From Candidatus Aenigmatarchaeota archaeon (lineage in GTDB: Archaea; Aenigmatarchaeota; Aenigmatarchaeia; JACPZZ01), in NCBI GenBank assembly GCA_016195275.1, contig JACPZZ010000029.1, positions 1-52,229 of the forward strand: DNA of 52,229 bases. Direction: 5' to 3'. The translations under genes and the position numbers were made by a program. Numbering within the stretch: position 1 is the stretch's first letter; the number at the start of each line of letters is the position of its first letter. Below are positions 5,710-40,283 of this stretch, in pieces. Below the pieces are notes generated by a model. That model did not search any database and had not been told where the DNA came from. It was given only the letters and a program-made list of their open reading frames with translations.

Positions 5710-5951
5710 GCCTGGGTAGTGTAGCGGTCTACCACGCGGGACTGTCAAATAAAATCCCTTTCTTTTTCGAAGAAAGGTCTTTTAAACAAAGGAAACCTTT
5801 GGTTCCCTTGCACAGTTTTGCTGTTGCAAAACCTGTGACCCCAAAGAAAACGAACGATCATACAGGGAAAGATAGACCGGTAAGAAAACCGCAGGTTTTC
5901 TTGCGGTACAGAACTCCCGTAACCCGGGTTCAAATCCCGGCCCAGGCGCCA
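5710..5951 (+). tRNA. tRNA-Asp (GTC) with a 166-nt intron and encoded CCA
   Basis: Exon 1 (5710-5747) gives acceptor GCCTGGG, a D-arm and the anticodon arm ending in GTC-A37. Exon 2 (5914-5951) gives CTCCCG, the T-arm with loop TTCAAAT, acceptor CCCAGGC, G73 and CCA. The intron 5748-5913 sits at canonical position 37/38. A textbook BHB is visible: exon CTGT (32-35) pairs with intron ACAG (5908-5911), with 3-nt bulges CA|A and AA|C marking the cuts. The intron holds several short hairpins, for example a perfect 9-bp stem at 5882-5902. Confidence 0.93.
5748..5913 (+). repeat. Hairpin array filling the tRNA-Asp intron
   Basis: Hairpins in order: 5758-5776 (7 bp), 5787-5801 (6 bp), 5811-5836 (TTTTGC/GCAAAA core, imperfect outside) and 5882-5902 (9 bp, loop GCA). 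The last stem, AAGAAAACC/GGTTTTCTT, belongs to the AAAACC/GGTTTT family that recurs elsewhere in the window. Confidence 0.7.
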
Positions 5952-6092: not shown

Positions 6093-6378
6093 GGGCCCGT
6101 AACTCAGCCTGGTAGAGTATCGGGCTTTTAAGCGAGTTGTCGGATGAAACAGGAAGTAAACTGAAGTATACCAATGGTATGCTTCGGTCTGAACCTGTTT
6201 CGATCAGCAAAAGTTTAAAAGAGCTGAGACCGTTCAAACTTTGAGACAAAGTTTGATCAAAGGGGGCGGTTTATGATCAAAAATCAAAACAGATATGAAA
6301 AATCAGAAATAATTGATATCAGTTTTGATTTTACGTAAAGAAACCCGAGAGTCGTGGGTTCAAATCCCGCCGGGCCCA
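6093..6378 (+). tRNA. tRNA-Lys (TTT) with a 212-nt intron
   Basis: Exon 1 (6093-6130) gives GGGCCCG, D-stem ACTC/GAGT, anticodon stem TCGGG and loop C-T-TTT-A37. Exon 2 (6343-6378) gives A38, CCCGA, variable GAGTC, T-stem GTGGG/CCCGC with loop TTCAAAT, acceptor CGGGCCC and A73. CCA is not encoded. The BHB is complete: exon CTTT pairs with intron AAAG (6337-6340), bulges TA|A and AA|A. The intron (6131-6342) contains long stems at 6146-6201 (with a nested 12-bp stem at 6161-6187), 6234-6256 (perfect 10 bp) and 6280-6332. rpoH begins 18 nt after this tRNA. Confidence 0.93.
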
Positions 6379-23613: not shown

Positions 23614-23656
23614 TCAAACCAGTTTAATTCTTTGTATTTGCTGCGATAGCCAAGTC

Positions 23657-23694
23657 AGGTTCAGGCGACTGAAGCAGACATGGTCTGCTTCTAG
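23657..23694 (+). other. D-loop insertion in tRNA-Ser, probable second intron
   Basis: The insertion has a perfect 9-bp hairpin (GAAGCAGAC/GTCTGCTTC, loop ATG) flanked by ACT and TAG, plus an alternative small stem TTCAG/CTGAA closed by GCGA. If not spliced, the D-loop would be about 50 nt long. The same ACT-GAA...TTC-TAGC frame surrounds the hairpin at 50655-50675. Confidence 0.6.
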
Positions 23695-23723
23695 CGGCCA
23701 AAGGCGCTGGTCTGGAATGTATA

Positions 23724-23908
23724 GGAACAAGTTGTTCGCAGGGGAGTAGTTTTCCAAAAGGAAACTATTGCAATTTACAAGGTAAACCCGATGGGTTTAC
23801 CTGTACAGTTTTTGCAAAAGCAAAAACTTGTACCTTCAGGTGGATTGCAAACGTGTGTTTGCTAGTTTACCAGTGGTAAACTGCAGCAGTTTTGCTCAAA
23901 GCAAAACT
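23724..23908 (+). repeat. Array of seven hairpins in the tRNA-Ser anticodon-loop intron
   Basis: In order: 23725-23737; 23747-23767; 23780-23802 (10 bp, AGGTAAACCC); 23807-23828 (9 bp, AGTTTTTGC, extendable outward to 23803-23833); 23847-23862 (6 bp); 23864-23882 (8 bp, AGTTTACC); 23888-23908 (8 bp, AGTTTTGC). Most are perfect, with loops mainly of 3-5 nt. Nearly the whole intron is base-paired into side-by-side stems. Confidence 0.85.
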
Positions 23909-23976
23909 AGCTTTCCTGCGACCAGAGAGCCAGTGTGCGCAAGCACGCGGGGGTTCAAATCCCTCTCGCAGCGTTT

Positions 23977-29516: not shown

Positions 29517-29750
29517 ATGAATTCTATGCCCGGTTATATAACCAAATATTTGAACGGGACTAAAGTGCGGACAGGCCAAAAAAGGAGACCTTTAGAGACT
29601 ACTAATAAACAAATGGAAAAATACAAATTAAGGGTAACAAGAAAACAGGGCGTTTATTCGGTGGTGCGAAACGGCAAAAGAACGCTTATAAAGGCTATCC
29701 TATATTATAATTTGGTACAATTACATTCGATGTTTGATCGAATTTATTAA
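29517..29750 (+). CDS. Doubtful basic 77-residue ORF
   Basis: Starts MNSMPGYITKYLNGTKVRTG and is very basic; an alternative start at 29613 gives 46 residues beginning MEKYKLRVTRKQG. Its last third overlaps the probable L3 promoter (29685-29694) and a hairpin at 29725-29743, so part of it must serve other purposes. No family recognised. Confidence 0.3.
   Translation: MNSMPGYITKYLNGTKVRTGQKRRPLETTNKQMEKYKLRVTRKQGVYSVVRNGKRTLIKAILYYNLVQLHSMFDRIY
29685..29694 (+). promoter_or_regulatory. Probable TATA box of the L3 operon leader
   Basis: CTTATAAAGG followed by an A/T-rich stretch resembles the 5S promoter region. Initiation about 25 nt on (near 29715) would give a leader of about 325 nt before rpl3. 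Confidence 0.5.
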
Positions 29751-30021
29751 AAGGGCGATAAAACCCTGCGGTTTTGGTTCCCGCGCGGTTCGAATGCCCT
29801 CAAACCAAAAACCACAAGTGCTGGCGTGGTTCTGGATTAGAAAACCTTGGGTTTTCTAATTTAGTAAACCTTTATGGTTTACTAAACTTAGAAGTTTAAA
29901 CGCTTCTTAGGTGCAGTTTTTGACTAGATGTAGGAAACTTTGTTTCCTATGCACGGCTGCAAGTTTGCCCTAAGGCAAACTGCAACAGTTTTGCCATGCA
30001 AAACTTGTTTGCAGTGCAAAC
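29725..30021 (+). repeat. Hairpin array in the rpl3 leader
   Basis: Hairpins in order: 29725-29743 (7 bp), 29760-29775 (6 bp), 29836-29860 (11 bp), 29860-29886 (11 bp), 29888-29910 (one mismatch), 29931-29949 (8 bp), 29962-29981 (8 bp), 29987-30005 (8 bp), 30007-30021 (6 bp). Most are perfect with 3-5-nt loops. The pair at 29962-30005 closely matches the tRNA-Ser intron pair at 23864-23908, including the spacer GCARC between them. A lone TTCGAAT at 29789-29795 looks like a T-loop, but no tRNA can be folded. No ORF is present. Confidence 0.75.
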
Positions 30022-30041
30022 CGTTGGCAAGGTAGGTTAAT

Positions 30042-31034
30042 ATGCCGAAAGTAAAATCCCCACGAAAAGGAAGCTTGGCTTTCAAACCGAGAAAAAGAGC
30101 TAAACGAATCTATCCTGTAATAAAATCATGGCCTGCAATGAAAGACGTTAAACCTTTGGGCTTCGCCGGCTACAAGGCCGGTATGACACATATCATGGCC
30201 GTCGACAAACAGGCCAACTCGCCAACAGCCGGCCAACTGGTCCAGTTCCCGGTTACAGTGATCGACTGCCCTCCCATTTTTATTCTCGGCGTGCGCGCCT
30301 ATTCAAAAGATTACAACGGCTTAAAATCGGCAAAAGACTTGTTCTTCAAAACGTTCCAAAAAGACCTTTCCAGGAAAATGAAACTGCCTAAAAATTATGA
30401 TTTTGAAAGCAGATTAAAAGAATTCGAATCAGCTGACATTGCGGATGTCAAATTAATCGTGAACACGCTTCCCAGGCAGTCGGGCCTTGAAAAAAAGAAA
30501 CCTGAAATATTCGAAATCGCGATTGGCGGTTCCGATGTCAAATCGAAAATAGAATACGCGAAACAACTTCTTGGCAAGGAAATTTCTGTCGGTAAAATTT
30601 TCAAGAACGGCGACTGGGTTGACATTGTATCCGTAACTACGGGAAAAGGCTTTCAGGGCTCGATAAAAAGGCATGGAGTTAAAATGCTCTCTCATAAAGA
30701 GGGCAAAAACAGGCGCGGTATAGGTTCAATGGGGCAGAAAAGGCCGGGCAAATTGCGCTGGACCGTGCCGTTGCCAGGACAACTGGGATTTCACACGAGA
30801 ACAGAATTAAATAAGAGAATAATACTGATAGGCGATAAAAACAGCGCGGTGAATCCGGCAGGCGGTTTTGTGAAATACGGCAATATCCCAAATGAATACG
30901 TAATTTTGCACGGTTCTGTGGCAGGCCCGAGAAAAAGGCTTGTGAGAATGAGATTTTCAGTGAGGCCGCCGAGCCTGAACCTTCCTCTTCCAGAGGTTAA
31001 ATCAGTTTCAACGGAAAGCAAACAGGGTGTATGA
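30042..31034 (+). CDS. rpl3: Ribosomal protein L3
   Basis: 330 residues. FAGYKAGMTHIM, VDIVSVTTGKGFQGSIKRHGVKM, and RRGIGSMGQKRPGKLRWTVPLPGQLG match archaeal/eukaryotic uL3. First gene of the S10/spc operon. The ATG is about 20 nt after the last leader hairpin. Confidence 0.97.
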   Translation: MPKVKSPRKGSLAFKPRKRAKRIYPVIKSWPAMKDVKPLGFAGYKAGMTHIMAVDKQANSPTAGQLVQFPVTVIDCPPIFILGVRAYSKDYNGLKSAKDLFFKTFQKDLSRKMKLPKNYDFESRLKEFESADIADVKLIVNTLPRQSGLEKKKPEIFEIAIGGSDVKSKIEYAKQLLGKEISVGKIFKNGDWVDIVSVTTGKGFQGSIKRHGVKMLSHKEGKNRRGIGSMGQKRPGKLRWTVPLPGQLGFHTRTELNKRIILIGDKNSAVNPAGGFVKYGNIPNEYVILHGSVAGPRKRLVRMRFSVRPPSLNLPLPEVKSVSTESKQGV

Positions 31035-39199: not shown

Positions 39200-39685
39200 A
39201 TGAACACTTCGGTACAAAGACGGATTGCGGCAAAAATATTGAAATGCGGAAAAAACAGGGTTTGGACGGATCCGCAAAAGTTGAAGGACATATCCGAGGC
39301 TATAACCAGGGAAGACGTGCGCAGGCTGATAAAGAGCGGTGCCATAGTCAAATCCGCAGAAGAAGCGCCTTCGAGGGCTGTGATAAGGACACGCGCCGCC
39401 AAAAGGAGAAAAGGCCGGCGTTCAGGGCAAGGCAGCCGCAAGGGTTCCTTCGAATCGCGCACAGGCAACGAGCAGAAACTAAGATGGATAAAAACTATAA
39501 GGCCGCAGAGGCGGATGATTGGAGAATTAAAGGCTTCCGGAGCGATAAACAATGAAACTTACAAAAGACTTTACAAACTTTCCAAGGGTGGTGTTTTCCG
39601 CAGCCGCAAACACTTGGAACTTTACATAAAAGAACACAAATTGCTGGTTGAAAAGGGTGTGAATAAGCCTTTCAAAAAGGCTTAA
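39200..39685 (+). CDS. rpl19e: Ribosomal protein L19e
   Basis: 161 residues from the ATG at 39200. QRRIAAKILKCGKNRVWTDP, RKGRRSGQGSRKGSFESR and KGGVFRSRKHLELYIKEH match eL19. Confidence 0.95.
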   Translation: MNTSVQRRIAAKILKCGKNRVWTDPQKLKDISEAITREDVRRLIKSGAIVKSAEEAPSRAVIRTRAAKRRKGRRSGQGSRKGSFESRTGNEQKLRWIKTIRPQRRMIGELKASGAINNETYKRLYKLSKGGVFRSRKHLELYIKEHKLLVEKGVNKPFKKA

Positions 39686-39713
39686 GCGAAAGAGAATGTG
39701 AGAAGGGTTTAAA

Positions 39714-40283
39714 ATGATGAGGTTACAATTCCGCCGAAGGCGTGAAAATAGGACGGATTACAACAAGCGACTCGGTCTGCTTCGTTCAGGCAAAACAAGA
39801 CTGGTTGTGAGAAAAACACTGCGCCACTATTCGGCCCAACTGATTGACTACACCCAGCAGGGCGACAGGGTTATCGCTGCCGCAAACAGCCTTGAGTTGA
39901 AAAAATTCGGCTGGCTGCTGCCAACAGGCAACTTACCGTCGGCATATCTTACAGGTTTTTTGTGCGGGTTGAAGGCAAAAGGCAAGGTCAGGGAAGCAGT
40001 TCTGGATATCGGCCTTCACGATTCCACCAAGGGAGGCGCAATATACGCGGCTATGAAAGGCGCTGTCGACGCCGGTATAACGATTCCTCACAGCAGCGAA
40101 ATTTTGCCTGCCGCAGACAGGATCACCGGCAAACACATAGCCGATTATGCGGAAATGCTGAAAAAGTCTGACCAGGCAGAATTCAAGAAGCGCTTTGCGT
40201 CTTACCTGAAAAATAATGCCAAACCCGAACAAATTGCAAAGACATTCGAAGAGACGAAAAAGGCGCTGCTGATGAAGTTTTGA
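39714..40283 (+). CDS. rpl18: Ribosomal protein L18
   Basis: 189 residues. FRRRRENRTDYNKRLGLLRS, KTRLVVRKTLRHYSAQLIDY and LTGFLCGLKAKG match archaeal uL18, a 5S rRNA binder. In most archaea S5, L30, L15 and SecY follow; here the operon stops and an opposite-strand gene begins. Confidence 0.96.
   Translation: MMRLQFRRRRENRTDYNKRLGLLRSGKTRLVVRKTLRHYSAQLIDYTQQGDRVIAAANSLELKKFGWLLPTGNLPSAYLTGFLCGLKAKGKVREAVLDIGLHDSTKGGAIYAAMKGAVDAGITIPHSSEILPAADRITGKHIADYAEMLKKSDQAEFKKRFASYLKNNAKPEQIAKTFEETKKALLMKF

Follow-up and report, generated by a model that had tools for sequence, protein, structure and literature searches.

The region immediately upstream of rpl3, the first gene of the S10 operon, is crowded with small hairpins in the window (the whole 52,229-nt stretch analysed here). 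Is this array a single RNA that controls the operon, is it a set of introns that moved out of a tRNA gene, or was it put together from separate parts? The first two readings were offered by the original prediction, in which nine hairpins of one family, akin to hairpins of tRNA introns, were described.

The source genome (G000) is a draft of 1.07 Mb in 34 contigs, and its nearest named relatives are Aenigmatarchaeota assembled from groundwater metagenomes. It was compared with four congeners (G001–G004) whose L3 protein is 81–82% identical to its own; the five genomes that bear the elements described below are all drafts. rpl3 (uL3; 30042..31034, + strand) was assigned from its translation and from this identity, and its start codon is the ATG at 30042.

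Folding of positions 29690–30060 gave an MFE of -125 kcal/mol (z = -5.77 against dinucleotide shuffles), and none of 100 shuffles was as good. The hairpins upstream of rpl3 are genuine by this measure, and about ten helices are predicted in the approximately 310 nt that precede the gene. In the window, 18 perfect hairpins of 8 bp or longer were counted, as against 3–7 in Markov controls, and these clustered in the S10 leader and in tRNA genes.

Two layers in the S10-operon leader

Alignment with the congeners separated the rpl3 leader into two layers, a leader conserved in the genus and two insertions of the source genome. The features of both layers lie on the + strand. The conserved layer starts with a TATA box (TATAAAGG, 29687..29694) that is retained in G001, G003, G004 and a second G002 contig. 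From the usual archaeal TATA spacing, transcription would be expected to start near 29712. A small conserved hairpin, TTCGA...TCGAA (29726..29742), recovered in the congener alignment and in the fold, is followed by the aligned leader core (29751..29834), which consists of a compound hairpin AGGGC...GCCCT with the loop TTTTGGTT and then a hairpin AACCAC/GTGGTT. The distal leader (29887..29928), also conserved in the alignment, carries a hairpin AGAAG...CTTCT and the tail CAGTTTTTGACTAG. A ribosome-site-like GGTAGG (30031..30036) is placed 5 nt upstream of the start codon with a spacing conserved in congeners, whose leaders too end in GGTAGG or a close variant ahead of the start codon. A conserved structure thus spans the interval from promoter to first gene, as in a ribosomal-protein leader.

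Mean column identity of the core was 92% across 5 congeners. In the five sequences 98% of the pair cells were paired, but covariation was slight, amounting to a single double change among 20 pairs. The 83-nt core was also made into a covariance model (R1), which returned one match per genome in five of five genus genomes, in each case upstream of rpl3, and with strict filters it matched none of the 151 other genomes of the class and no genome of other Aenigmatarchaeota families. By eye, the sequences upstream of rpl3 look different in several of these other families. Some of them have in common a short motif of another kind ahead of rpl3, GGAAAGTTTTCGTA...ACGTGTTCT (L023, L024, L031), perhaps a leader of their own, and in another family (L038 of G025) a hairpin-rich stretch precedes rpl3, with unrelated stem sequences. 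No Rfam family matched the leader at the gathering score, and matches up to E = 10 were at chance level.

Two candidate assignments of the leader were rejected. A pseudoknot between the core loop TTTTGGTT and a tail, AACCAAAA, required an alternative fold 7–10 kcal/mol less stable; its partner sequences are invariant and therefore uninformative, and the full stem together with the pseudoknot looks strained since the tail begins 2 nt past the stem base. The leader is also not a divergent RNase P RNA, since that RNA was found elsewhere, on contig C5. RNase P RNA is itself unusually long in the genus, 406–454 nt (L043 / L112 3475–3928; L062; L067), and SRP RNA is of ordinary length. The sequence of the GAAACAG...CTGTTTC hairpins of RNase P RNA appears again in the tRNA-Lys intron and close to G000:C2:26275; no type-1 element (defined below) was seen in the alignment of the genus RNase P RNA.

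The second layer consists of two insertions that have no counterpart in the leaders of relatives. A 51-nt type-2 double-hairpin element (29836..29886) lies between GTTCTGG and CTTAGAAG and is absent in the G002 and G003 leaders; in G001 and G004 the core is followed by a different, unrelated stretch common to both. A 98-nt composite (29929..30026), absent in all four congener leaders, is a type-1 element (TGTAGGAAAC...GTTTCCTATG-CA-CGG...CCG-TTG) whose second hairpin holds a nested type-3 double hairpin (29957..30007), a pair like that of the tRNA-Ser intron and 78% identical to window positions 23860–23910. The composite leaves GGTAGG intact. Without both inserts the leader measures 209 nt from TATA box through ATG, compared with 208 nt for G003 without its own insert, and 177 of 203 aligned positions (87%) are identical between the two. 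Removal of the insert from the G004 leader leaves exactly the length of the G001 leader.

The description of nine hairpins as one family did not hold. Only two hairpins (29836–29886) and four hairpins (29929–30026) belong to a dispersed family; those at 29726–29742, within 29751–29834 (the compound hairpin and AACCAC/GTGGTT) and at about 29890–29907 are parts of the conserved genus leader.

Dispersed double-hairpin elements and their insertion sites

The inserted elements are about 48–52 nt long and consist of two small perfect hairpins side by side, with fixed ends and variable loops. Type 1 follows the pattern CATAGGAAAY-loop-RTTTCCTATG-CA-CGR...-loop-...YCG-TTG; it starts with CATAGG (or CACAGG, TGTAGG), ends with CGTTG and has CA between the two hairpins. 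Type 2 follows ATTAGAAAACC-loop-GGTTTTCTAAT-TGAGAAAAY-loop-RTTTTCTCA-A, and type 3 is the tRNA-Ser-like hairpin pair. A whole-genome pattern search found 19 type-1 copies in the source genome and 4–11 per congener, the pattern occurred in none of 35 genomes of other families, and the reversed pattern gave no match. Hairpin 1 of type 2 is present at 8 places in the source genome and 1–3 per congener, and type 3 in 3 copies and 0–2 per congener; both were found only within the genus. The elements lie mostly outside genes, in both orientations, and nested in one another. Composites with the same nesting as that at 29929–30026 were found at G000:C2, G003:C3:222440 and G004:C3:50649. A repeat of about 150 nt, in three copies in the source genome (L003, L004, L005, around 1300–1560), starts near TGACCTCCTC and bears a double hairpin of type 2. 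This repeat may represent a derivative of IS200/IS605-like type that carries the hairpins as hitch-hikers.

The stems of type 1 have changed in a compensatory manner. The arms of hairpin 1 are 95% Watson-Crick paired, compared with 82% when arms were shuffled among copies, and those of hairpin 2 are 96% paired compared with 62%.

Insertion polymorphism of the double-hairpin elements was seen between close relatives. The rpl3 leader is occupied in G004 (48 nt) and empty in G001. The promoter-proximal leader is occupied in G002 (50 nt) and empty in G001 and in the source genome; G003 carries a related insert there. Outside the leader, a G002 locus (L129) holds a 52-nt element where the window is empty (39570–39800); the empty site is a small hairpin (39664–39684), and the element sits inside the hairpin loop. 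A further G002 locus (L149, 50 nt) is occupied where G004 is empty, and a Y1 transposase gene is occupied in G004 (48 nt) and empty in the source genome. At the sites examined between congeners, neither target duplication nor base loss was found. For one other candidate empty site (L144) no clean alignment was obtained. Leader inserts lie at differing positions among congeners, so the leader was entered several times in the genus. The expectation of similar arrays in relatives was borne out as far as like elements occur in congener leaders, but they occur there as other insertions at other positions. Dispersal, defined ends, empty and occupied sites, nesting, compensatory stem changes and restriction to the genus are thus features of this family.

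How could such elements move? Palindrome-associated elements of Haloquadratum derive from IS200/IS605 (PMC3119063), and the elements described here might similarly be non-autonomous derivatives of the IS200/IS605 (Y1) type, mobilised in trans by the genome's own Y1 transposase. Like these archaeal elements and REP/BIME, they have terminal hairpins and lack target duplication; insertion would fit single-stranded DNA, and an intact Y1 gene is present (G000:C8:16637–16981) along with the interrupted one in G004. Unlike them, they show no fixed target motif: the flanks differ among about 30 copies, with no constant 5' tetra- or pentanucleotide. They also share no ends with the local Y1 insertion sequence, as hairpins adjoining Y1 (GCGGGCTTCAGCCCGC; CCCCGCACTTTAGTGCGGGG) looked unlike the elements by eye at one locus per genome, and the element-bearing but incomplete genomes G001–G003 gave no Y1 match. 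A Y1 derivation therefore appears unlikely. As a separate observation, the 48-nt element in the Y1 (IS200-type) gene of G004:C5 (L118, 15322–15369) is of type 2; the corresponding gene is intact in the source genome (L100, 16890–17110).

Local formation of the hairpins by template switching during replication, with no transposition, is still less probable. In the hairpin census, which was built from searches and targeted stretches and favours regions with hits, the four-base loop reads CGTT in L099 (14527–14574) and its reverse complement, AACG, in L107 (8594–8713) and L110 (9204–9282), with the same stem and flanks, as though an in-place inversion of the hairpin had occurred. Such inversions between similar copies, together with arms that stay perfectly complementary despite sequence change, are what template switching would give. 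It leaves unexplained, however, why the same 48–52 nt sequence with the same ends is found at dozens of loci, and why whole elements are cleanly inserted between congeners. Template switching may account for the complementarity of the arms in elements that spread by insertion; the loop inversions hint at this process, or at a hairpin resolution that keeps the arms complementary.

Operon control and tRNA introns

The strong fold and the location between promoter and rpl3 would suit a single regulatory RNA made of the whole nine-hairpin array and acting on the S10 operon. Six of the hairpins, however, are insertions missing from congener leaders that retain promoter, core and start codon, and the inserted hairpins recur at many unrelated places. 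We consider this explanation highly improbable. What stands of the proposed control region is a structured leader that, judging from the TATA box and the core conserved in congeners, is probably transcribed; the array within it is two insertions that congeners lack at these places. A regulatory role is arguable for the conserved core alone.

The link to tRNA introns was partly upheld. Each of the three tRNA genes detected in the window has a very long, hairpin-rich intron and is missed by a default tRNA search. tRNA-Asp(GTC) (5710..5951, +) has a hairpin-rich intron of 166 nt, compared with 55 and 88 nt in two congeners, and tRNA-Lys(TTT) (6093..6378, +) one of about 212 nt, compared with 85 and 103 nt in two congeners. 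tRNA-Ser(GGA) (23640..23972, +), delimited by alignment with G003, contains a hairpin-rich anticodon intron of about 170 nt with a type-3 pair at 23862–23911, and a D-arm insert that is absent in G003. The tRNA-Ser genes of the source genome and G003 share the type-3 pair, and extra hairpins are present in the former. Type-1 copies were also found in introns of tRNA-Leu (source genome) and tRNA-Arg (G004), and a type-3 copy lies inside a tRNA gene call of G002.

The reported match between the leader pair at 29962–30005 and the tRNA-Ser intron pair at 23864–23908 was reproduced, with a score of 22.5 and, over 50 columns, 78% identity. In 20,000 random windows no score was as high, and the top-scoring ones proved to be further copies of the element. 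Identity of the leader pair to the G003 tRNA-Ser intron was 87%. That an intron array left the tRNA-Ser gene for the leader, as this last identity might suggest, is nevertheless scarcely probable, as the leader pair is nested in a type-1 element, the same composite occurs at three other loci in three genomes (source genome C2, G003, G004) where no tRNA gene was called, and the sequence that flanks the pair in the tRNA-Ser intron is absent from the leader copy. Some of the leader hairpins are thus akin to those of tRNA introns, but their history is explained more simply without a direct transfer from a tRNA, since the composite is nested alike at those loci. The most economical account has a single mobile family colonising the leader as well as the tRNA introns.

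Taken together, the observation that opened this study is partly confirmed: the hairpins and the tRNA-Ser match stand, the single nine-hairpin family does not. These results suggest that the S10 operon very likely has a conserved 5' untranslated leader which was invaded twice in the source genome by genus-specific mobile double-hairpin elements.

A model for the elements and its meaning

In this model, the leader, which in its ancestral state measured about 205 nt between TATA box and start codon, would be transcribed, and its core may control the operon, e.g., through binding a ribosomal protein of the operon. The elements insert precisely, with neither target duplication nor loss in the cases examined, and their nesting builds arrays. 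Each copy folds on itself, which would make it tolerable within leaders and tRNA introns; in the rpl3 leader, tolerance could be attributed to this local folding and to the retention of the ribosome-site-like stretch (30031–30036) with its spacing. The inserts would then be near-neutral passengers. The mobilising factor could be supplied in trans; no autonomous partner or enzyme was linked to the elements.

The closest behaviour is described in fungal and sponge mitochondrial DNA for double-hairpin elements and repetitive hairpin-forming elements, which are short single or double hairpins dispersed in intergenic regions and in variable parts of RNA genes, form arrays by tandem insertion, carry complementary stem substitutions and vary in presence between relatives (PMC2800124). 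Dispersal, arrays, compensated stems, free loops and presence or absence between relatives are the same here, whereas the host is a cellular archaeal genome, the ends are CATAGG...CGTTG, the length is 48–52 nt and the sites include tRNA introns and a ribosomal-protein leader. The elements would best be read as an archaeal counterpart of the mitochondrial ones in behaviour, and kinship is not claimed. The open-licence papers that were searched gave no account of elements of this kind from DPANN archaea.

Rickettsia palindromic elements are about 150 bp long and often lie in frame in genes (PMC10969869). With these and other prokaryotic MITEs the present elements share small size, non-autonomy, palindromic structure, lineage specificity and entry into genes and RNA genes. 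MITEs usually have target duplications (PMC10969869), whereas these elements, of about 50 bp, show none. The leader itself resembles autoregulatory leaders of ribosomal proteins in being a conserved structure immediately upstream of a ribosomal-protein operon, and differs in matching no Rfam family and in being confined to this genus in the strict-filter model search.

Tentatively, the elements could represent a lineage-specific class of archaeal mobile DNA, non-coding, of about 50 bp and two hairpins, which inserts precisely, and with no target duplication, into hairpin loops, tRNA introns and leaders. Such a class would use neither a DDE nor a standard Y1 transposase, would possibly move via RNA or single-stranded DNA, and would be among the chief sources of the large tRNA introns found in the genus.

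The empty and occupied sites in close relatives show how inserted mobile hairpins that fold on themselves enlarge the structured RNAs of a DPANN archaeon with a small genome. One family of elements thereby connects the exceptionally long tRNA introns with an operon leader, and the precise insertions provide a tractable set for finding how such tiny elements move. The candidate regulatory leader of the S10 operon can now be separated from the passenger hairpins that masked it.
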